64,000 nt of DNA from Methanolobus chelungpuianus (GCF_024500045.1 NZ_JTEO01000002.1:372001-436000), one strand, 5' to 3'. Numbered from the stretch's first letter, positions 1,191 to 11,627 are shown. The notes: a model not told the origin generated them from the letters alone. Numbers and translations: made by a program.

Positions 1191-4100
1191 TCAGTTAGCC
1201 TTGATGTACTCTATCATCTTCGGCGTCAGCAGCGGTGCGATCTGAGGCAGCATATTGGGCATCAGGTTCGCCATTGCCGCAGGCATGAGGTCAGGCATCT
1301 GCTCCTTCATGTGTGGGGGCATGGGCACTCTCTTCTCAACCGCCACGAGCATCTTCGGCATGACCTTGGGCATCAGGGACGGCATGAGCAGGGGCATCAT
1401 TTTTGGCATCATGGGCTTCATGAGCGCATCCATGCCCGGCACGTACTTGACAGTCTTCATCATGGCCTGCATGTATGAAGGCATGGCGCCTATCATATCC
1501 GGCAGCAGCTCAACCATCATCTCTGTCATGTTCTCGGGCTCCATCAGCTCGATCATCTTCTCGAAGGTGACCCAGGCTCCCAGTGCCACATTGGTGGTGT
1601 CCGGGATATCGTACCCCAGGCTGCGGGCTGCCAGCGCTCCAAGGTCCTGTATCTCCATGTTGACATTGTTATCCCTTGCGGCCACCCTGAACTGTACAAG
1701 ACAGCAGGGACAGAGCGCGGCCATGATATCAGCCTTCTGGTCCTTCGCCTCCTGCAGGCGAACGTTACCGATCTTACTTGCCACCTCCGGCTCATCGATA
1801 AGCGTCACGACGGAGCCGCAGCATAGTGCTCTCTCCCTGTTGTGCTCCATTTCCCTGAACTCCACACCCGGTATGGCCTTGAGCAGTTCCCTGGGGGCGT
1901 CGTATATGCCGGCACCCGCCCTTCCGATATGGCACGAGTCGTGCCATGCCACAACCTTGTTCAGGGGCTGCTTGAACTTCGGCTTGAGCACGTCAAGCTT
2001 ATCGGCCAGCACTTCCGAGTAGTGCTTTGCCTCTATCCCGTACTCCATCCCCAGTTTCTCAGCCCACTGAGGGTAGATGGTCCTCCACATGAGCAGGCAT
2101 GCGGGACATGAGGTGACAACCGTCTTTACACCCTTCTTCTGCATATTGGCGGTATTCATCTTCATGATCTTCTCGAACAGGTCCCATTTGCCTGCAACAA
2201 GCATGGGAATGCCGCAGCAGGATTCCTTATCTCCGAGGTATGTGAACTCCACTCCTGCCTCATCAAGCAGGCGCACGGTGCCCACGGCAACATCCCTTTC
2301 CACAAAGGAGGCAGTACATCCTGCAAAATAACCGATCTCTGCCTTGTCCTTGATCTTGGCCCTGATATCATCGGGAAGCCACTGATCCCTGTCCTTCCTG
2401 TAACTGGCCCAGATGTTCCTCTCCTTCTCCAGGCTCTGCGCCATGATCTCAAAGGGAGGGATGGTCATCATCTTCTTCTTCTGGACCAGATTCTCCCTGA
2501 GTGTCATCCAGGAACGCTCGATCGGCAGGTCCAGCTGGCAGTAATGATCGCACATCTCACATGTGGTGCATGCAAGGAAAGTGTCAGCCTGTTCCTGGTC
2601 CAGCTCCATTCTTCCCCCGACGTATTCCTTAAGGAAGAACCACTTGCCCCTGGGTGACTGGGATTCCCATCCCCTTCCATAGTACTGGTCGCATTCGTTG
2701 ACGCAGTATCCGCACTGTGCGCAGGTGAAAGCGTGTGAGAGCACGTCCCCCGGAATGCCTTTCTCGTCCCTGAACTCCTGCCTGCCGACCCCTGACATGT
2801 TGCCCATGGTGCGTGCCATGGGTTCGAATGCCCTTGCAAAGGAAAGCCCTGTCTGCATAAGGGATTTGCCTGTCAGTGTCTCAGGATTCATGATGTCATC
2901 GGGGTCCGTGCTCTTCTTGAGTTCCCGTATGCTTTTCAGCCTTTCTCCAAAGACCTTTTCCGCCTTCCTGGAGAAGTACAGCCCCGATGAATAGATCCTT
3001 CCGCCGTTATCCTCTGCTATCTTTACAATACTCAGAGCCAGCGGGAAAGCAAGATTATATTTGGAAGACCTTTCGGAATGAGGTATGAAGCACAGCATAA
3101 CTGCCTCGTGGCCCTTGACGACCATGCCTTCCACAAGTACCGGGAGGCCGATCTTCTTTCCGATCTCCTCGAACATCGTCCCTATGCTGCCAACAGGCAC
3201 GACCACTTCGGCGGGTATGAAGGAAGGACCAAGCCTCTTGACCTTCATGGACCTGAACCATTCCTGTGTCTCATGTTCTGCTATCTCTTCCGGGAGCACC
3301 TCCCCGCCAGCTTCCCTTATGATATCCTTAAGGCCGCTTACATCCCTGGATGCCGGGTAAGCGAAATTGCATATATATAGTTCCGGCAGGTGAGGCCTGT
3401 GCTCGTCCACAGGCTTTCCGTAGTGGGTCTTAGGCGGCGCCTGGTTCTTCATATTCGCCCATTGAGGGTTCAGGAAAGAGACAGCCCACACCGGGACCTT
3501 CCTCTCACCGACTTTCTGTATGGCTGCCTGCATGCTCCGGGCATCCGGGAATCCTGCCGAGATGGCAGCTGTCTTCTCATGCTCCCTTACCCGGAGAGTG
3601 ACCTGTGTGATTATACCGACGGTTCCCATGCTGCCTGTTATCTTGCCCAGCTCTTCTCCTGGGAAATCCCTTACCTCTCCGTTTGGCAGCACCACCCGGG
3701 CGGATTCCATGGTGTCCTGTGACCAGCCGTATTCGTAGCTCCCGTATCCCACACCATTCTGGGCAAGCCAGCCTCCGACGGTTGCTGATAATGCGCTTGA
3801 GGGAACGGCCTGCACTGCCAAGCCTTCCTCATTCAGTTTTGTCTCAAGATCGTACCAGATGATGCCTGCTCCCACGGTAACCCGGAAATTGTCTTTATCC
3901 ACCTTGATTATGTCCCTCATGGGCGTGACATCGGCTATTATCCCTCCTTTTGTGGGAATGACGCCGCCGTAGCCTGAGGAGGCGCCTGCCCTTGGTACTA
4001 CAGGTATGCCATATTTGCGGGCAAAATTCACAAGCTTTACCGCATCATCTTCATTTCTCAGTTTTACGATCGCAGCCGGTTTTGTGTTACCCAGCATCTT

Positions 4101-4238
4101 TTTCACAAGGGACGGCAGCGCACCCACATCGTGAGTGTAGAAATGTCTCTCCCTATCGCTGAAGTTTACCCCTTTGCCAAACATGGATGAAAGTCCCTGT
4201 TTTTGTTCATCCGTCAACTCATATGTCGTATTTGCCAT
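1191..4238 (-). CDS. FAD-binding oxidase fused to CCG-domain Fe-S protein (D-lactate/glycolate dehydrogenase-like)
   Basis: 1015 aa. Domain order: FAD-binding PCMH-type domain (glycine-rich RAGASSGYGG near residues 83-92), FAD-oxidase C-terminal domain, a 2[4Fe-4S] ferredoxin-like module (CAQCGYCVNEC near 505-516 and CTTCEMC near 557), then two CCG domains (CCGIPM near 672, CCGSVV near 803) as in GlpC and HdrB/D. Such fusions oxidise D-2-hydroxyacids such as lactate or glycolate and pass electrons through Fe-S clusters to a membrane or heterodisulfide acceptor; the substrate here is inferred from family only. Residues about 903-1011 form an unusual Met/Pro-rich repeat tail. GGGAG lies 6 nt before the ATG. 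The neighbour across the shared promoter is pyruvate kinase, compatible with a lactate/pyruvate link. Confidence 0.85.
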   Translation of the reverse strand: MANTTYELTDEQKQGLSSMFGKGVNFSDRERHFYTHDVGALPSLVKKMLGNTKPAAIVKLRNEDDAVKLVNFARKYGIPVVPRAGASSGYGGVIPTKGGIIADVTPMRDIIKVDKDNFRVTVGAGIIWYDLETKLNEEGLAVQAVPSSALSATVGGWLAQNGVGYGSYEYGWSQDTMESARVVLPNGEVRDFPGEELGKITGSMGTVGIITQVTLRVREHEKTAAISAGFPDARSMQAAIQKVGERKVPVWAVSFLNPQWANMKNQAPPKTHYGKPVDEHRPHLPELYICNFAYPASRDVSGLKDIIREAGGEVLPEEIAEHETQEWFRSMKVKRLGPSFIPAEVVVPVGSIGTMFEEIGKKIGLPVLVEGMVVKGHEAVMLCFIPHSERSSKYNLAFPLALSIVKIAEDNGGRIYSSGLYFSRKAEKVFGERLKSIRELKKSTDPDDIMNPETLTGKSLMQTGLSFARAFEPMARTMGNMSGVGRQEFRDEKGIPGDVLSHAFTCAQCGYCVNECDQYYGRGWESQSPRGKWFFLKEYVGGRMELDQEQADTFLACTTCEMCDHYCQLDLPIERSWMTLRENLVQKKKMMTIPPFEIMAQSLEKERNIWASYRKDRDQWLPDDIRAKIKDKAEIGYFAGCTASFVERDVAVGTVRLLDEAGVEFTYLGDKESCCGIPMLVAGKWDLFEKIMKMNTANMQKKGVKTVVTSCPACLLMWRTIYPQWAEKLGMEYGIEAKHYSEVLADKLDVLKPKFKQPLNKVVAWHDSCHIGRAGAGIYDAPRELLKAIPGVEFREMEHNRERALCCGSVVTLIDEPEVASKIGNVRLQEAKDQKADIMAALCPCCLVQFRVAARDNNVNMEIQDLGALAARSLGYDIPDTTNVALGAWVTFEKMIELMEPENMTEMMVELLPDMIGAMPSYMQAMMKTVKYVPGMDALMKPMMPKMMPLLMPSLMPKVMPKMLVAVEKRVPMPPHMKEQMPDLMPAAMANLMPNMLPQIAPLLTPKMIEYIKAN

Positions 4239-4275
4239 GGTAGTCTCCCTAAATTCTTAATTGTCATCCGGTCAG

Positions 4276-4323
4276 TTTAAATCTTTTCTATAATGACTAA
4301 TTTAAATTGTGAATATATATACT
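4276..4323. promoter_or_regulatory. Divergent TATA boxes for oxidase and pyruvate kinase
   Basis: Within the 154-nt gap, gtttaaatc at 4276-4284 (minus strand GATTTAAAC) suits the oxidase gene and gaatatatatactc at 4310-4323 suits pyruvate kinase, which would start transcription near 4348 with a leader of about 45 nt. Confidence 0.4.
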
Positions 4324-4392
4324 CAATTGAATACTGCAGAATAAGCCTTAATTCAATCAGTTCCATACTGTACAACATGGGTGTGAACGAGG

Positions 4393-5844
4393 ATGAATGA
4401 GACAATGCATTTGCCGGACAACAAAAGCAAGATAGTGTGTACTATCGGTCCTGCGTCTTCTTCGGAAGAGGTACTACGGGAACTGATCATTGAAGGCATG
4501 AATGTCGCAAGGCTTAATTTCTCCCACGGGGATATCGAAGACCAGCGAGCGGTGATAAGGAGGATACGCAAGTTATCGGCTGAGCTGAACCGGGTGGTGG
4601 CTATACTGGCAGACCTGCCCGGTCCCAAGATAAGGGTCGGTACTTTCGAGAAGGAGCCTGTGTTCCTTAAAAAAGGGGAAAAGGTGACCCTGACATCAAG
4701 GGATGTAGTGGGAACCGAGACCCTGATCCCTGTTAATTATGACCGCCTGTCCAACAGCGTGCAGGCCGGCAAGCCGATATTCCTTAACGACGGCTTCATC
4801 CAGCTGCAGTGCACGGGCACGGAGGGTGAGGATGTCTATTGCGACGTGGTGGTAGGGGGTCCCCTTTCCTCAAACAAGGGCCTCAATCTTCCGGGTGCCA
4901 GGATATACATCGATCCTGTTACCAAGAGGGATCTGGAGATAGTCGACTTTGCACTTGAAGAGGGACTGCATATCTTTGGCGTGTCCTTCATCGAATCGGG
5001 GGAAGATATAAGGAAGCTGCGTGACCATGCGATCCGGAAGGGAAAGGAAATATTCATAATATCCAAGATAGAGCGGGAAAAAGCTGTCAGGAGCATCGAA
5101 AGCATAATGGCTGAGAGCGACGGCATCATGATAGCCCGCGGAGATCTCGGGGTGGAGATTCCCATACAGGATGTGCCCATCGTCCAGAAGAACATCATAC
5201 ACCGGGCCAACCTGCTGAGCAAGCCGGTGATAACGGCAACCCAGATGCTTGAGTCCATGATCGAGAACATCCGCCCCACAAGAGCTGAGGCTACGGATGT
5301 TGCGAATGCTATAATCGACGGTACCGATGCAGTCATGCTCTCAGCAGAGACTGCAGTAGGCAGGCATCCCGTCGAGACCGTCAGGACCATGGTAAGCATA
5401 GCCAGGTCCACCGAGGTTTGGAGAGCCAATACAAAAGAAGGCCTGACACTAATGAAGAAGGCGTTGAACCGGATGAATCCCGGTGTTGAGGACATGATAT
5501 CAATGCAGGTGAACGATGCCCTGCAGGTGCTTCCTGTCAGGTATGTGGTGACTCCCACGGTTTCCGGGAAGACCGCGAGGAACGTTTCCCGTTTCAGGCC
5601 AGACAGGTGGATACTGGCGTTCAGCCGCAATCCTCATACATGCGAGCAGCTTGCACTCCAATACGCCGTACATCCTACTTTTGTCCCCGAACTTAAGGGT
5701 GACTGGGAAAACATGGTTATTGACTACCTTAAAATGTCAGGTGCTGCCGGGCCGGGGGATATGTTCATTCTGACGCAGGGGCAGCCCTCAGGGCGCGGCC
5801 GGCCCGGAGGCACCAATCTGCTGAAGTTTATTCAAGTGGAATAA
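4393..5844 (+). CDS. pyk: Pyruvate kinase
   Basis: 483 aa, usual length. Converts phosphoenolpyruvate and ADP to pyruvate and ATP. Clear signatures: CTIGPASSS at the N-terminus, MNVARLNFSHG, the active-site ISKIEREKAV lysine region, MIARGDLGVEIP, and the VITATQMLESM/RPTRAEATDVANA block that binds metal and phosphoenolpyruvate. The B domain lies in the usual place (about residues 75-170) and the C-terminal allosteric domain is complete. It stands alone on the plus strand with its own promoter, divergent from the FAD/Fe-S oxidase. The protein ends in a Gly/Arg-rich stretch before LLKFIQVE. Confidence 0.97.
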   Translation: MNETMHLPDNKSKIVCTIGPASSSEEVLRELIIEGMNVARLNFSHGDIEDQRAVIRRIRKLSAELNRVVAILADLPGPKIRVGTFEKEPVFLKKGEKVTLTSRDVVGTETLIPVNYDRLSNSVQAGKPIFLNDGFIQLQCTGTEGEDVYCDVVVGGPLSSNKGLNLPGARIYIDPVTKRDLEIVDFALEEGLHIFGVSFIESGEDIRKLRDHAIRKGKEIFIISKIEREKAVRSIESIMAESDGIMIARGDLGVEIPIQDVPIVQKNIIHRANLLSKPVITATQMLESMIENIRPTRAEATDVANAIIDGTDAVMLSAETAVGRHPVETVRTMVSIARSTEVWRANTKEGLTLMKKALNRMNPGVEDMISMQVNDALQVLPVRYVVTPTVSGKTARNVSRFRPDRWILAFSRNPHTCEQLALQYAVHPTFVPELKGDWENMVIDYLKMSGAAGPGDMFILTQGQPSGRGRPGGTNLLKFIQVE

Positions 5845-5910
5845 AACAAATCTATTTTCATATCTTATTTTTTTATTCCAATCTAGTTATATACACAATT
5901 ATATTTATAT

Positions 5911-7746
5911 ATGGATATAGCCATTCTAAGAACGACTAGTAAAAAAGCGCTGGAACATCAGATCCCTTACCACCGCGAGTTGCATAATGTAATGAAGCTA
6001 TATCCGCTGTTTGTCCGATTTTCCTTGCTCTTGGTGCTTTTCGGCTTTTTTTTACTGCCGGCAGCATCGGGTGAAGAAAACGTGTATGTCATCGGGATAC
6101 TTTCCCACAGAGGCCCTGACCACTCCCTGAGTACACTGGCCGGGACCGCAGAGTATCTTTCAGAGGAGGTTCCCAACTGCACTTTTGAAATATTGCCTCT
6201 GGACTATGATGAGATATTCGATGCTGTCAGCAATGACCGGGTCGATTTTGTCCTGACGGACCCGTTCCTGTACGTCGAGCTGGAATCCACTTACGGTATC
6301 AGCAGGATAGCCACCATGAAGAACAGCTGGGGCGGCAACGCCTATACGGAGTATGGCGGAGTGATCATTACCCGGTCTGACAACGATAATATCAATGAAC
6401 TAAGCGACCTCAGGGGCAAGTCCCTGATGGCGGTGGATGAGCATTCATTCGGAGGCTTCTGGATAGGCGTGCGCACCATGGAGCATAATGACATCGACTA
6501 CAGGGAGGATTTCAGTAATATCACATTCGGAAAAACGCATGACGCTGTAGTCTATGCAGTCAGGAGCGGAAGCGTCGATGTGGGGATCATCAGGACCGAT
6601 GTGCTTGAGAGACTGGCGGCTGAAGGGAAAATTAATATTTCCGAGTTCAAGGTCATTAACCAACAACATGCGGAAGCTTTCCCTTTTCTGCTGAGCACTC
6701 AGCTCTATCCCGAATGGGCGTTCTCAAAGGTGAGTTCCACACCTCTTGAGCTTGCTGAGGAAGTAACCATTGCACTCCTCAGTATGCCATCCGATACTCC
6801 TTCCCCGGCAAATGAAAGCAATTCAACTCTGCGGTCAGGTAACTATGCAGGATGGACGATCCCTCTTGATTATACTCCCGTGCATGAGCTCATGAAGGAG
6901 CTGAGACTTGGCCCTTATGAGAACTATGGCAGGGTCCCCCTTAACGAAGCAATAGCGCAGCACTGGTACTGGGTTGTCCTCTTCTTCATGTTGCTTGTTA
7001 TCATTGTCACTTATGACCGTCTGACCACAGAGAAGATAAAAAAGGACGAACTGGAAAAATCCAACAAGCTCAAGGATCTCTTTACCGATATCATGAGACA
7101 TGACCTCCTGAACCCGGCGGGGACTATCAAGGGTTTTAATGATGTCCTGTACCTTAAAGAGGATGATGAGGAAAAGAGGAAGATCATTGAGGCAATAAAC
7201 AGGCAGACCGATAAGCTGATATCCATGATCGATTCGGCTGCAAAACTTGCAAAGCTTGAATCTTCCCATGAGTTGGAGCTCGATAAAAGGGATCTCGGGG
7301 TTATATTGAAGAACGTGGCTGAAAGCCTTGATCACGGGCTGAGGGAAAAGGACATCAGGCTGGAACTTGCAATTCCAGGCAAATATCCTTCCCGGGTGAA
7401 CGAAATAATCGAGGAGGTCTTCACGAATCTGATGTCAAATGCTATCAAGTACAGTCCTGAAGGAAGCAAGGTCAAAGTGGAGATCATCGATGCAGGGTCC
7501 TACTGGAAAGTCCACGTAATAGACAGCGGTGACGGGGTAGCCGATGAGAACAAATCCCGCATATTCGAACGCTTCACCAGGGCTGACAGGAAAGGTATAA
7601 AGGGATCAGGTCTTGGACTTGCTATTGTTAAAAGGATAATCGAGCTGCATAACGGGTTTGTTGGTGTGAACGACAATCCGGAAGGAAAAGGCTCTGTATT
7701 CTGGGTTGCCCTGAAGAAATACGATCATACATCGTCTCACAACTGA
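5911..7746 (+). CDS. Sensor histidine kinase with PhnD-like periplasmic binding domain
   Basis: 611 aa from the first ATG. An N-terminal hydrophobic segment (VRFSLLLVLFGFFLLPAASG) is followed by an extracytoplasmic phosphate/phosphonate-binding (PhnD-like) domain to about residue 330, a transmembrane helix near 351-369, a HisKA domain (MRHDLLNP, His near 397) and a complete HATPase (NAIKYSPEG, DSGDGV, GSGLGLAIVK). It should sense a ligand outside the cell and autophosphorylate. No response regulator lies nearby. The start is uncertain: an in-frame ATG at 5992 puts the signal helix at the very N-terminus, whereas a TATA-like ttatatac at 5886 would suit a leaderless start at 5911. Neither has a good ribosome site. 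Confidence 0.88.
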   Translation: MDIAILRTTSKKALEHQIPYHRELHNVMKLYPLFVRFSLLLVLFGFFLLPAASGEENVYVIGILSHRGPDHSLSTLAGTAEYLSEEVPNCTFEILPLDYDEIFDAVSNDRVDFVLTDPFLYVELESTYGISRIATMKNSWGGNAYTEYGGVIITRSDNDNINELSDLRGKSLMAVDEHSFGGFWIGVRTMEHNDIDYREDFSNITFGKTHDAVVYAVRSGSVDVGIIRTDVLERLAAEGKINISEFKVINQQHAEAFPFLLSTQLYPEWAFSKVSSTPLELAEEVTIALLSMPSDTPSPANESNSTLRSGNYAGWTIPLDYTPVHELMKELRLGPYENYGRVPLNEAIAQHWYWVVLFFMLLVIIVTYDRLTTEKIKKDELEKSNKLKDLFTDIMRHDLLNPAGTIKGFNDVLYLKEDDEEKRKIIEAINRQTDKLISMIDSAAKLAKLESSHELELDKRDLGVILKNVAESLDHGLREKDIRLELAIPGKYPSRVNEIIEEVFTNLMSNAIKYSPEGSKVKVEIIDAGSYWKVHVIDSGDGVADENKSRIFERFTRADRKGIKGSGLGLAIVKRIIELHNGFVGVNDNPEGKGSVFWVALKKYDHTSSHN

Positions 7747-7755
7747 CATAGGCGA

Positions 7756-8736
7756 TCAGTCTGCCTTTCTCAGCACTATTGACCCGTCACGCATACGCAC
7801 TTCTATATATTTTTCTTTCTCAGGCTCGAGCTCATACTTGTTGTAGAGGCCTGCATCTATCCTGCCTGCTTCCATTATCCTGCGCATGAGCGCAGCATCT
7901 TCCTTTCCCATCCTGACCTTTGCAACAGGAGAGTTTATCTTGACCCTGCTTCTGGAATATATCGTCCCGCCGCTCATACCTGCCCCGATGTAGCCTTTGG
8001 CATCCCTGAAGGCAAGAACACCGCCTTTCATGTAGGCGCCTGCGAACTCGCCCACGCTTCCAAGGACTGCCACAGTTCCTCCGTCAAGGTGTGACCCCGT
8101 GTTCATGCCCGCATCTCCGTTGACGATTATTGTACCCTCACGCATGAGCACGCCTGTGCCATTATGTGCTTTGCCTTCGATGCGGAGAGTCACGGGTTTG
8201 TCGCAGCGTGCACCCACCGTGGCCCTGAGGATACCGTCATTGAGCAAAAGCGTACTGTTCTCCGGGTCGTAAATGTTCAACAGCAGAATCTCATCTCCCG
8301 GTCCGTTGCATACAATGTCTGTTATGGAACGGAACTTGCGATATCCACTGATATCTGACCTTACTTCGATTATGTTGCCTAAGGGTTCACTTATGCTGCC
8401 TGCAACATATAGTGTCCCGGAGACCATGCCCATGCCGGCCTCAGGCCCTATATCTCCCTCCACGAAAACATGGCCTGCACTCTCCATGCCTCCGCTCCCG
8501 CCCATATGCTGCAGGTCGGCACCCATGCTGTAGGCAAAGTTCCTGCCCACGTTCCCTCTGATACGGACATCGTCCCCTCTTTTCAGCGCCAGCACAAGGT
8601 CCCGGTATGTAAGCTCAGTGTCTCTCTGGAAAGGGATCGTGCTGTCCGGGTCCAGTGCCCGGTTGTGCCAGTGGAAATTGAAAGTATAGTCCAGCAGATA
8701 GTCTGTGTCTTCTGTTATCTCTATTTCGACAGGCAT
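7756..8736 (-). CDS. GXGXG-domain protein (FwdC/GltB C-terminal type)
   Basis: 326 aa from the ATG at 8736, which follows the ferredoxin stop by 5 nt; a longer frame to 8853 would overlap the ferredoxin gene and is not needed. The protein has repeated G-x-x-G-x-x-M/L-x-G-G units (GDAGMNTGSHLDGGT, GEFAGAYMKGG, GYIGAGMSGG) that build the right-handed beta-helix found in subunit C of formylmethanofuran dehydrogenase and the C-terminal domain of glutamate synthase. In those enzymes the domain is structural, closing a substrate channel. No formylmethanofuran or glutamate synthase partner is adjacent; instead it ends the Dsr-LP operon. Family is clear, function is not. Confidence 0.82.
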   Translation of the reverse strand: MPVEIEITEDTDYLLDYTFNFHWHNRALDPDSTIPFQRDTELTYRDLVLALKRGDDVRIRGNVGRNFAYSMGADLQHMGGSGGMESAGHVFVEGDIGPEAGMGMVSGTLYVAGSISEPLGNIIEVRSDISGYRKFRSITDIVCNGPGDEILLLNIYDPENSTLLLNDGILRATVGARCDKPVTLRIEGKAHNGTGVLMREGTIIVNGDAGMNTGSHLDGGTVAVLGSVGEFAGAYMKGGVLAFRDAKGYIGAGMSGGTIYSRSRVKINSPVAKVRMGKEDAALMRRIMEAGRIDAGLYNKYELEPEKEKYIEVRMRDGSIVLRKAD

Positions 8737-8741
8737 CTTGA

Positions 8742-9110
8742 TTATCCATGTATCAACTTTGGAAGGCAGCGTGTGCAGACCCAGATGCTTTCCATCTTGT
8801 GCCTGACAGGCATAAGATAAGCGCTCTCTTCCCCGCAGTCGCAACTGAAGCACCTGATGGACGTATCGGTCTTTTTGGGTTGAGCATGGGCTTTTTCCGG
8901 GTTGAATTCCAGCGTCTGCCTCTGTTCAATGGATATTGCCCCGACCGGACACAGCCCTATGCAGAATCCCATGCCGTCGCACAGCTCATCGGAAACCACT
9001 TTCGCCTTGCCGTTGACAAGCTCTATTGCCCCTTCAGCGCATGGGGATATGCATTTTCCGCATCCTGTACATTTCTCCTCATCGATCTTGACGATTGATC
9101 TTTTAACCAT
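8742..9110 (-). CDS. Ferredoxin with seven cluster cysteines and a C-terminal cysteine knuckle
   Basis: 122 aa from the ATG at 9110, chosen because GGGGAG lies 8 nt upstream; the longer frame to 9149 lacks this. The first cluster motif is complete (C14-x2-C17-x2-C20-x3-C24). The second has C44, C50 and C54 but Met at the position of the expected second cysteine, so it may hold a [3Fe-4S] cluster or a [4Fe-4S] with an unusual ligand. A separate C-terminal segment adds C87, C90, C92 and C112, C115, resembling a zinc or Fe-S knuckle. It sits between the CGGC and GXGXG genes in the Dsr-LP operon and probably delivers electrons to the siroheme protein (inference). Confidence 0.85.
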   Translation of the reverse strand: MVKRSIVKIDEEKCTGCGKCISPCAEGAIELVNGKAKVVSDELCDGMGFCIGLCPVGAISIEQRQTLEFNPEKAHAQPKKTDTSIRCFSCDCGEESAYLMPVRHKMESIWVCTRCLPKLIHG

Positions 9111-9129
9111 AATGAACTCCCCGGGAACA

Positions 9130-9453
9130 TCAGTGATGTGTTCCCTCAACCATTTTTATACCTGCATTGGTAATAGTCCTTTTTATCTCTTCTATATGTG
9201 GGCACTTGGGATAGTTATCCATCTGCATGCAGGAGCTGAGGTGGATGACGTCAACTCCATGCCTGAGTAAGGATTTTACAAGCCTGTGCACCCTGCGCCC
9301 TGAACATCCGCCGCAGGTAAAGAACGCTACCATCTCGGTATTGCGGTCATAGTCCTTGAAGTGGACCGTACGCTTATTGAAAGCCTTGAAGCATCCTACT
9401 CCAGGGCATGTCTCCGATACGATATCGCATCTTATTACCGCAATCCGTGTTAT
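9130..9453 (-). CDS. CGGC-domain protein, apparently initiated at ATA
   Basis: 107 aa if read from the ATA at 9451-9453. The family's conserved N-terminal half (RIAVIRCD, ETCPGVGCFKAFN, HFKDYD) lies upstream of the first ATG (9333) in the same open frame, so the ATG start would amputate it. The frame is closed by TAG 36 nt further up and contains no ATG, GTG or TTG before 9333; AGAGGATG lies about 10 nt before the ATA. The CGGC motif itself is at residues 47-50, followed by HLSSCM and PKCPHIEEIK and the terminal VEGTHH, all standard. CGGC proteins are thought to bind metal, zinc perhaps; activity is unknown. It is the second gene of the Dsr-LP operon. Confidence 0.75.
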   Translation of the reverse strand: MTRIAVIRCDIVSETCPGVGCFKAFNKRTVHFKDYDRNTEMVAFFTCGGCSGRRVHRLVKSLLRHGVDVIHLSSCMQMDNYPKCPHIEEIKRTITNAGIKMVEGTHH

Positions 9454-9556
9454 ATGCCCGCCATCCTCTGCAATGCCAGCTATAAGATCAGCTCCGCTCT
9501 AAACTCGCCCTGGAATAAAAGGGGATTGAAGATCGTCCCCTGAAAGATGCTGCTGC

Positions 9557-10216
9557 TTAAAGGCCGATCTCTTTCTTGAACTTGTCAAGGCCCATCTCAT
9601 CGATGACCCTGCCCAGCCGGTGCTTTGAACCGTTGGTCTTGCAGAAGCTGATGATTTTATCAACGAGCTGGAGCACTTCATCCTCTGTGAGCTCATCTGC
9701 AATAACATCAGCAAGCCTTGGTCTGATAGCTGCATTCCCGCCGACCATGACCGTATATCCTTTAGGGGTACCCATGACACCGATATCCTTTATGGCCGGT
9801 TCCGAGCATGAGTTGGCACATCCGGAAACTGCCATCTTGAACTTGGATGGAAGTGGCATTCCGTGATATTTCTCATCAAGCTTTAGTCCGAGACCCACAG
9901 CATCCTGTTGTCCGCGCTTACAGAATGTCGTGCCCGGACATATCTTTATGCTCCTGACACAAATGCCAATAGCAGCACCTGGCTTTATCCCCAGGTCCTC
10001 CCAAGCCCTATCGAGGTCCTCTTCCTTCAATCCTACAATAGCAACTCTCTGGGACGAAGTCACTTTCAGTGTTGCTGCATTATATTTCTCAGCAACATCT
10101 GCGATCTTGCGGAGCTGTTCTGCCGAAACGATCCCCCCCGGAAGGTGTGGTGCAATTGCATATGTTTCCTTATCCCTCTGCAGGATCGCTCCTTTTTCAA
10201 GTAGGTCTTTTGACAT
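9557..10216 (-). CDS. Dsr-LP: small siroheme/[4Fe-4S] sulfite-reductase-like protein
   Basis: 219 aa from the ATG at 10216, with GAGGAG upstream at somewhat long spacing. An N-terminal ferrite-reductase half domain (residues about 15-75) is followed by the siroheme/Fe-S signature C93-x5-C99 and C133-x3-C137 (SGCANSCSEP), all four cysteines present. This is the minimal half-size sulfite/nitrite reductase fold known in methanogens as dissimilatory sulfite reductase-like protein. It lacks the inserted ferredoxin domain of DsrA/B and the F420 domain of Fsr. Substrate unknown. First gene of an operon with a CGGC protein, ferredoxin and GXGXG protein, divergent from an HxlR regulator. Confidence 0.9.
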   Translation of the reverse strand: MSKDLLEKGAILQRDKETYAIAPHLPGGIVSAEQLRKIADVAEKYNAATLKVTSSQRVAIVGLKEEDLDRAWEDLGIKPGAAIGICVRSIKICPGTTFCKRGQQDAVGLGLKLDEKYHGMPLPSKFKMAVSGCANSCSEPAIKDIGVMGTPKGYTVMVGGNAAIRPRLADVIADELTEDEVLQLVDKIISFCKTNGSKHRLGRVIDEMGLDKFKKEIGL

Positions 10217-10307
10217 TTTAAAATCACTCCTCATCCACAACTGTTTATGGATTATTGGTATATTGTGACGGGGGACATATATATCCGGTAGTTTCTAATT
10301 GGATACC
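10217..10307. promoter_or_regulatory. Divergent promoter of Dsr-LP operon and HxlR regulator
   Basis: A 91-nt gap. TATA-like catatatatcc at 10276-10286 lies about 24-30 nt before the HxlR ATG at 10308, which predicts a leaderless transcript. The Dsr-LP side has a ribosome site GAGGAG near 10229. The regulator's operator most likely lies in this gap, but I see no strong palindrome; ATCCA...TGGAT (10238-10255) is the only short inverted pair. Confidence 0.5.
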
Positions 10308-10664
10308 ATGAAAGACTGTACTATTTATAAAACAGTTGATATAATCGGAAAGAAATGGTCCCTCTGTATCCTTCTTGAGCTCTACAAGGGCGAAAGGAAG
10401 GAGAAACGCTTCAACGAGCTCAAGGCCAAACTGCAGGACGTTACTCCGAAAACACTCTCCCAGAGGCTAAGAGAACTCGAGGAACAGGGCTTCATTAAGA
10501 AGACCCTGGACGACTCCGCAGTGCCAGTCAAGTGCGAGTACTCCCTCACCGAAAGTGGCGAGGAGTTCCTGAACATTATCCAGAATATCAAGAAGTGGGG
10601 TCTGAAATGGAAATTCGAGAACCATGATTGCGAGAATTCTAACTGCAGATTATGTAAATTGTAA
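10308..10664 (+). CDS. HxlR-family winged-helix transcriptional regulator
   Basis: 118 aa from the ATG at 10308; a TTG three codons earlier is less likely because the TATA box predicts transcription to begin almost at the ATG. The HxlR pattern is clear: DIIGKKWSLCILLEL, RFNELKAKL..VTPKTLSQRLRELEEQGFI, and the beta-wing ending VKCEYSLTESGEEF. Cysteines occur near the N-terminus (residues 4 and 20), as in redox-sensing members, and the tail carries a C-x4-C-x2-C group. It probably controls the divergent Dsr-LP operon in response to redox or electrophile stress (inference from position and cysteines). Confidence 0.92.
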   Translation: MKDCTIYKTVDIIGKKWSLCILLELYKGERKEKRFNELKAKLQDVTPKTLSQRLRELEEQGFIKKTLDDSAVPVKCEYSLTESGEEFLNIIQNIKKWGLKWKFENHDCENSNCRLCKL

Positions 10665-10721
10665 TGGCTTTGATTCAGAAAGGTTAAGTAAAAGTGCGAA
10701 TTAATCTTAAATTGTGATTAT

Positions 10722-10907
10722 ATGGCTAGACAATTAAGACGTTCCAAGAGTAACAGGATGATTGCGGGAGTGTGCGGCGGTCTTGGAGAATATTTTGAGA
10801 TTGACCCCGTGCTCATAAGGCTGCTTCTGGTTGTTGCAACTCTGATGGGTGGATCAGGCATTATCCTGTATCTGCTGGCGTGGGTGCTCATACCTGAAGA
10901 GACATAA
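10722..10907 (+). CDS. pspC: PspC-domain membrane protein
   Basis: 61 aa, a stand-alone PspC domain: basic N-terminus RRSKSNRMIAGVCGGLGEYF, then IDPVLIRLL and one long hydrophobic stretch (about residues 33-57, LLLVVATLMGG..ILYLLAWVLIP). PspC proteins are membrane partners in the phage-shock response. The PspA-family gene lies 10 kb away at the left edge. No Shine-Dalgarno site precedes the ATG; AT-rich sequence ending about 20 nt upstream suggests a leaderless or very short leader transcript. Confidence 0.93.
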   Translation: MARQLRRSKSNRMIAGVCGGLGEYFEIDPVLIRLLLVVATLMGGSGIILYLLAWVLIPEET

Positions 10908-11042
10908 GGTTCCAGGGAACTGCAAGTGCTGATCACGCCAGGCAGAGGTATGCATCGTATCAGTTACCATAATCATAAATAGACGTTTTGTGTTTTATAT
11001 ATGGGGTAATGCGCAGTTTGTAGCAGGCACAGGTGATCCGAT

Positions 11043-11627
11043 GTGAGCAGGCTTCCAAAAATGTTCCTTGTAGCGATTACAGTACTGTGGCTGGTTCTGG
11101 CAGCAGGGTGTATCGGCAATGACGGTAATGAGGCACAGGAAGGTTTGTCTGATACAGAGGATGATGGGTTACGTGAAGACCAGGAGGCAGTTGGTATGCT
11201 TATTTCCAGCAGCGCGTTTGATAATGGCAGCCAGATCCCGGTAAGATATACCTGCGATGGGGAGAACATCAACCCTCCGCTGGAGTTTGGGAACATACCC
11301 GAGGGAACGGAAAGCCTTGTATTGATAATCGATGATCCTGATGCCCCCTCCGGCAGTTTCACCCACTGGGTGGTCTGGGATATCCCACCGGTCTCCCGGA
11401 TAGATGAGAACAGTGTTCCAGGCACAGTAGGAATGAACAGCTTTGGACAGACGGCATATGGAGGTCCATGTCCCTCATCGGGAATGCACCGTTATCAATT
11501 TATGGTGTTTGCACTTGATACTGAGCTCAACCTGACAGGCAGGGCTTCAGCAGACCAGATAGAAGGATCGATGCAGGATCACATCCTTGCACAGGGCCTG
11601 TTGACAGGCAGATATGGAAGAACCTAA
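11043..11627 (+). CDS. YbhB/YbcL-type PEBP family lipoprotein
   Basis: 194 aa starting at GTG, with GGTGAT 6 nt upstream; the ATG two bases earlier reads straight into a stop. A signal sequence ends in the lipobox LAAGC (Cys23), so the protein should be lipid-anchored outside the cell. After an acidic linker comes the phosphatidylethanolamine-binding/Raf-kinase-inhibitor-like fold: CDGENINPPLEF, DDPDAPSGSFTHWVVWDI, GGPCPSSGMHRYQFMVFALD and LLTGRYGR, all conserved. Archaeal members have no established substrate. The kinase gene downstream follows by 30 nt and may be co-transcribed, but the functions do not obviously connect. Confidence 0.9.
   Translation: MSRLPKMFLVAITVLWLVLAAGCIGNDGNEAQEGLSDTEDDGLREDQEAVGMLISSSAFDNGSQIPVRYTCDGENINPPLEFGNIPEGTESLVLIIDDPDAPSGSFTHWVVWDIPPVSRIDENSVPGTVGMNSFGQTAYGGPCPSSGMHRYQFMVFALDTELNLTGRASADQIEGSMQDHILAQGLLTGRYGRT

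Follow-up and report, generated by a model that had tools for sequence, protein, structure and literature searches.

A conserved HxlR-linked siroheme protein operon of Methanosarcinales with a CGGC gene that appears to start at an isoleucine codon

Introduction

Siroheme proteins of the alSir type have been studied since the 1980s, and no clear physiological role has emerged for them. In the literature, alSir corresponds to Group I of the Dsr-LP proteins (PMC3448663, PMC6286981), one of which, P590 of Methanosarcina barkeri, weakly reduces sulfite in vitro (PMC3448663). A preliminary description of the locus considered here held that Dsr-LP proteins have no firmly assigned reaction, which stands for their physiological role (unclear; PMC3448663, PMC6286981) but passes over this in vitro activity of an alSir-type protein. 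Besides P590 and DVU_1597 of Desulfovibrio vulgaris, the closest described systems are NirB, the large subunit of NADH nitrite reductase; the RrpA/RrpB-type redox regulators of the HxlR family; and the GXGXG proteins represented by formylmethanofuran dehydrogenase subunit C (FwdC) and the GXGXG domain of glutamate synthase. A further parallel concerns translation initiation: infC of Escherichia coli starts at AUU. In bacteria, starts at AUU, AUC or AUA (hereafter AUH) occur but are uncommon (PMC4611024, PMC5622118). A reconstruction across 36 groups of bacterial and archaeal genomes yielded just two changes to AUU (PMC5622118), and in archaea aIF1 disfavors non-canonical starts (PMC8211752).

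Here we analyzed a 64,000-nt stretch of Methanolobus chelungpuianus DNA (GCF_024500045.1, NZ_JTEO01000002.1:372001-436000), hereafter the window, which carries genes for an alSir, a CGGC-domain protein, a ferredoxin, a GXGXG protein and an HxlR regulator. In the literature, we found no description of an HxlR-CGGC-ferredoxin-GXGXG set around an alSir and no function already assigned to the four-gene set. We tentatively infer, with a probability of roughly 40%, that the locus is an HxlR-controlled, ferredoxin-fed operon of Methanosarcinales for nitrite/sulfite detoxification, in which the CGGC protein is made at a low level from an AUH start. The most novel element, the AUH start, is independent of the functional reading of the operon.

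Gene content and layout

All five genes claimed for positions 7756-10664 were recovered there by the ORF list and domain profiles. The minus-strand order in M. chelungpuianus is alSir, CGGC, ferredoxin and GXGXG (10216-7756), with HxlR divergent, and the gap between the alSir and HxlR start codons has the 91 nt originally given. The features are as follows.

10308..10664, plus strand: HxlR regulator, 118 aa, with conserved Cys4 and C-terminal CX4CX2C
10217..10307, no strand assigned: divergent promoter region, 91 nt, with a conserved TATATA/GAAAC element
9557..10216, minus strand: alSir (Group I Dsr-LP), 219 aa, with siroheme-[4Fe-4S] motifs CX5C and CX3C
9487..9495, minus strand: Shine-Dalgarno-like GGAGCTGAT before the proposed CGGC start
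9481..9483, minus strand: proposed AUA initiation codon of the CGGC gene; ATG at this position in the sister genome G055
9130..9483, minus strand: CGGC-domain protein (PF08821), proposed 117 aa from the ATA start
8742..9110, minus strand: ferredoxin, 122 aa, with four-Cys and three-Cys cluster motifs and a C-terminal CX2C...CX2C ribbon
7756..8736, minus strand: GXGXG beta-helix protein, 326 aa, assigned by GXGXG domain score

Convergent with the operon and 9 nt away lies a histidine kinase gene (5911-7746, plus strand) with an extracellular phosphonate-binding-type domain; it weakly resembles the tetrathionate kinase TtrS (189 bits against a cut-off of 750), and a relative from the same cluster is also found near the CGGC-ferredoxin-GXGXG triad in some ANME-3 loci (L044, L049, L051). 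No Rfam structured RNA matched in or around the operon.

The siroheme protein is a Group I Dsr-LP with a NirB-like pocket

The siroheme protein contains the coupled siroheme-[4Fe-4S] motif (CX5C ... CX3C), and in its 219 residues only the NIR_SIR domains score above cut-off (NIR_SIR, 112 bits; NIR_SIR_ferr, 67 bits), with no domain for a peripheral or additional ferredoxin cluster. Three of the four anion-binding Arg/Lys residues are kept and the first is missing, the pattern of subgroup Ia. By the definitions of PMC3448663, the protein is a Group I Dsr-LP (alSir) of subgroup Ia. It shares with P590 and DVU_1597 its size, its siroheme-[4Fe-4S] motifs, the lack of a ferredoxin insert and the missing first anion-binding basic residue, but differs from them in belonging to a conserved HxlR-CGGC-ferredoxin-GXGXG set.

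Among curated models, the best match of alSir is NirB (180 bits, compared with 66 for AsrC and 58 for DsrA), although the full-length NirB cut-off is 578 bits and only the siroheme region aligns. Over that region the identity is 35-37% and four pocket positions are shared, whereas the flavin/NADH part of NirB is lacking. At the first pocket position, alSir reads T-S-S-Q-R and NirB T-G-S/G-Q-R, and the residue there, non-Arg in both, is Arg in CysI, AsrC, Group III and the genome's other siroheme protein, which has the reverse order of scores (AsrC, 167 bits; NirB, 93 bits). The latter protein (G000:C5:110199-111020, locus L002; about 287 aa) is AsrC/Group III-like, contains a ferredoxin insert and retains the first pocket Arg. 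As judged from these residues, the NirB-like pocket favors nitrite as the alSir substrate, with sulfite also possible, and the likeness to NirB could stem from ancestry instead of substrate.

The alternative that fares best is that alSir reduces sulfite to sulfide, either as a safeguard for methyl-coenzyme M reductase or as a supply for sulfur assimilation, with nitrite an incidental substrate. It is in keeping with the sulfite reduction by P590 in vitro (PMC3448663), with alSir being one of the most highly expressed sulfur proteins in ANME (PMC6286981) and with the weak, below-cut-off likeness of the convergent downstream sensor kinase to TtrS. However, P590 has only weak activity and M. barkeri is sensitive to sulfite (PMC3448663), which also inhibits Methanococcoides burtonii, a species with alSir (PMC6286981), and the pocket is NirB-like. 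We consider this alternative rather unlikely.

Conservation of gene order

The survey of gene order called for in the preliminary description showed the order to be conserved. By whole-genome coordinates, the CGGC and ferredoxin genes are adjacent in 93/95 genomes, the ferredoxin and GXGXG genes in 54/54, and the alSir and CGGC genes in 65/87; with adjacency of 54/54 and 93/95, the arrangement is well beyond chance. Because alSir is the looser member by these counts, the tightest unit is CGGC-ferredoxin(-GXGXG) rather than the siroheme protein, and alSir, with its inconstant adjacency, may not be the partner of the ferredoxin. Where CGGC is not its neighbor, alSir often stands next to hdrED-like or rubrerythrin genes. 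The full order, with HxlR divergent from alSir, CGGC, ferredoxin and GXGXG, recurs across Methanolobus species at loci with sufficient flank. In Methanosarcina, HxlR is divergent from alSir, which is followed by a cupin gene, CGGC and, further along, the ferredoxin, and GXGXG is absent; in Methanococcoides, a DUF166 gene lies between alSir and CGGC. In a sample of 393 genomes from the phylum, the ferredoxin was found only in Methanosarcinales.

These variants bear on the original view of a complete small enzyme system centered on the Dsr-LP, which did not hold: the CGGC-ferredoxin-GXGXG triad occurs without an adjacent alSir in Methanohalophilus, ANME-3 and genus g11, and the siroheme, CGGC and ferredoxin genes of Methanosarcina occur without GXGXG. 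They also raise the possibility that the triad is a separate system, for metal handling or the maturation of cofactors, which in some lineages has just its promoter in common with alSir. In Methanohalophilus, ANME-3, g9, g11 and g12, all three genes, or at least CGGC and the ferredoxin, are kept together with alSir absent from the neighborhood. Yet CGGC has alSir as its neighbor in all tested genomes of Methanolobus, Methanococcoides, g4 and g5 and in 25 of the 26 Methanosarcina genomes, and in some ANME-2 alSir is again found near the ferredoxin and GXGXG genes. We judge a separate triad unlikely.

In the sister genome G055 (L125, about 3200-11470), the operon is broken by an integrated element that carries genes for a tyrosine integrase and a UvrD-type helicase, among others. 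The break lies at the 3' end of the CGGC gene, of whose 106 conserved residues about 98 remain.

HxlR regulator and divergent promoter

The regulator matches the HxlR family (PF01638) above the gathering score, at 88 bits. Its extra cysteines, pointed out in the preliminary description, are conserved: Cys4 and the C-terminal CX4CX2C are kept in the orthologs that reach the C-terminus. Like the RrpA/RrpB-type redox regulators, it scores above the Pfam HxlR cut-off and has an N-terminal Cys before the winged-helix domain, but it scores below the RrpA/RrpB cut-offs and carries the added C-terminal motif. The 91-nt gap, proposed earlier as the promoter site, does contain a conserved divergent promoter element, GAAAC...TATATA. 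Just behind this element, several relatives have the inverted repeat GTAT-N7-ATAC, one half-site of which is degenerate in the window.

Ferredoxin, GXGXG and CGGC proteins

Across 58 distinct sequences, the ferredoxin has 11 invariant Cys. Seven of these belong to the cluster motifs CX2CX2CX3C and CX5CX3C, as implied by its initial designation as a seven-Cys ferredoxin, which left out the conserved C-terminal CX2C...CX2C ribbon and hence understated the total. The motifs are consistent with a 4Fe cluster and, probably, a 3Fe cluster, followed by a zinc-ribbon-like tail.

The GXGXG protein scores 34 bits against the GXGXG domain (cut-off, 32.5), and its nearest relatives are Methanolobus records. 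Its predicted structure (pLDDT 90) gave weak fold matches, with which the sequence agrees, to formyltransferase/hydrolase, formylmethanofuran dehydrogenase subunit C and the GXGXG domain of glutamate synthase; these matches, the best obtained, suggest that it shares the repeat motif and a beta-helix with the latter two. It is nevertheless a stand-alone protein of 326 aa, with no Fwd or Glt partner encoded at any locus examined, and by its score (55.7 bits against the subunit C cut-off of 130.65) it does not belong to that subunit family. A search for plasmid-borne relatives found none. In Methanoperedens (L062-L093), the gene immediately upstream of a GXGXG homolog often encodes a 325-aa FtsZ/tubulin-like protein; in L086-L088 it encodes a Group III-like Dsr-LP.

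The CGGC protein matches PF08821 above the gathering score (124 bits), and the CGGC motif is invariant across 22 sequences. Its predicted structure (pLDDT 82) has an alpha/beta fold, with no match in the PDB at E <= 0.001, only generic alpha/beta folds.

Apparent AUH start of the CGGC gene

From the in-frame stop upstream to the conserved IAVIRC motif, the CGGC gene of the window contains no ATG, GTG or TTG, a point missed in the preliminary description, and it has an AUH codon at Shine-Dalgarno spacing. The mechanical ORF list shortens the gene to 67 aa (9130-9333), while the conserved sequence extends up towards the ATA at 9481-9483. Placement of the start there is supported by the sister genome G055, which has ATG at exactly this position (GGAGCTGATCTT ATG, compared with GGAGCTGATCTT ATA in the window).

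The same situation recurs in relatives. An in-frame canonical start is missing from 30 of 70 distinct CGGC orthologs, a count that includes one Methanosarcina sequence (L150) with a stop at the first residue that looks degenerate, and from 0 of 254 control genes, representing nine other genes and including five nominal exceptions that, when checked, proved to have an ATG just inside the aligned start. At Shine-Dalgarno spacing, Methanolobus genes have ATC or ATA, some of them ATT ATC, and many contain two adjacent ATH candidates; in 20 aligned genes, the codon at the start position is ATC 19 times, ATA once and never ATG. The corresponding codon is ATT in 7/7 Methanococcoides genes, ATC or ATA in 6/6 ANME-3 genes and mostly ATT in ANME-2 (9/9 with AUH). 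The CGGC genes of Methanosarcina and Methanohalophilus have canonical starts. In four of the 7 Methanococcoides genes, the first residue of the domain is encoded by GTG or TTG, with no Shine-Dalgarno site, and in L131, L133 and L136 of this genus no canonical codon precedes the CGGC domain and a GAGGTGAT or GAGGCGAT site stands just before ATC ATT. From this comparison, translation of the CGGC gene appears to start at an isoleucine codon (AUA/AUC/AUU), not AUG, in at least four lineages.

That the gene is instead translated from another, unrecognized site, through recoding, or is decaying seems quite unlikely to us. Such accounts can draw on the in-frame GTG that ANME genes carry inside the Shine-Dalgarno site. 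This GTG is a possible actual start, but it lacks a separate Shine-Dalgarno site, and nothing corresponds to it in Methanococcoides or in most Methanolobus. Decay is at odds with a reading frame that is intact and constrained in many species; the protein is under purifying selection, with diversity of 0.13, 0.07 and 0.48 at codon positions 1, 2 and 3. Readthrough of UAG (pyrrolysine) is rejected as a general cause, 25 of the 30 upstream stops being TAA or TGA; for the window, where the upstream stop is TAG, the argument comes from the relatives. Frameshifting from a canonical start is contradicted by two distinct sequences without ATG, GTG or TTG in any frame between the Shine-Dalgarno site and the domain.

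Returning to the AUH start, we give even odds to the idea that selection holds the CGGC gene at such a codon across several Methanosarcinales genera as a translational throttle on one operon subunit, possibly sensitive to initiation stringency, which would make it an archaeal counterpart of infC-type starts. As in the bacterial cases (infC; PMC4611024), a non-AUG AUH codon behind a Shine-Dalgarno site would be evolutionarily kept; the CGGC gene differs in being archaeal, in belonging to a redox operon unrelated to initiation factors, and in having a start that is proposed from sequence comparison. Our literature search found no papers on an AUH start in the CGGC gene. If true, such conservation of an AUC/AUA/AUU start would be highly unusual for an archaeal gene family and very rare in nature, and ORF callers limited to ATG, GTG and TTG would shorten or miss the gene, as did the mechanical list.

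A proposed redox-stress operon

In the scheme that we infer for the regulation, electron flow, substrate, scaffolding and throttling of the detoxification operon, a reactive oxidant or oxyanion would modify the HxlR cysteines (Cys4 and the C-terminal CX4CX2C) and thereby release repression. The ferredoxin would pass electrons to alSir, whose siroheme-[4Fe-4S] center would reduce nitrite, sulfite or a related small species, nitrite being favored by the NirB-like pocket. The CGGC protein and the ferredoxin may act as a pair, and the GXGXG protein may serve as a beta-helical scaffold in the lineages that have it. Because of its AUH start behind a Shine-Dalgarno site, synthesis of the CGGC protein would probably be throttled below that of its neighbors. 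The conserved adjacency, the divergent regulator with its conserved cysteines and promoter, and the rubrerythrin genes found beside alSir copies in several genomes argue for a redox-stress operon; the absence of GXGXG from Methanosarcina argues against it.

Earlier authors have suggested the reverse reaction, oxidation of sulfide to sulfite for coenzyme M synthesis (see the discussions in PMC3448663 and PMC6286981), but this is very unlikely, as some methanogens lack both Dsr-LP and Fsr although coenzyme M is essential (PMC3448663), and the divergent regulator and linked ferredoxin suggest induced reduction.

The proposed detoxification operon would provide alSir with directly testable candidate partners, namely a conserved ferredoxin, two accessory proteins and a redox-type regulator encoded divergently, and the NirB-like pocket points to a testable substrate.

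A second type of alSir locus (L115, L116, L117, L121, L127) places the gene directly upstream of two hdrE-/hdrD-like (heterodisulfide reductase) genes, so named from their size, order and a cysteine-rich-domain match, with no curated hit. A tree asking whether the HxlR-linked alSir derives from the hdrED-linked copy was largely unresolved and joined long branches. In Methanosarcina and Methanohalophilus, a rubrerythrin gene stands in front of this second locus type.
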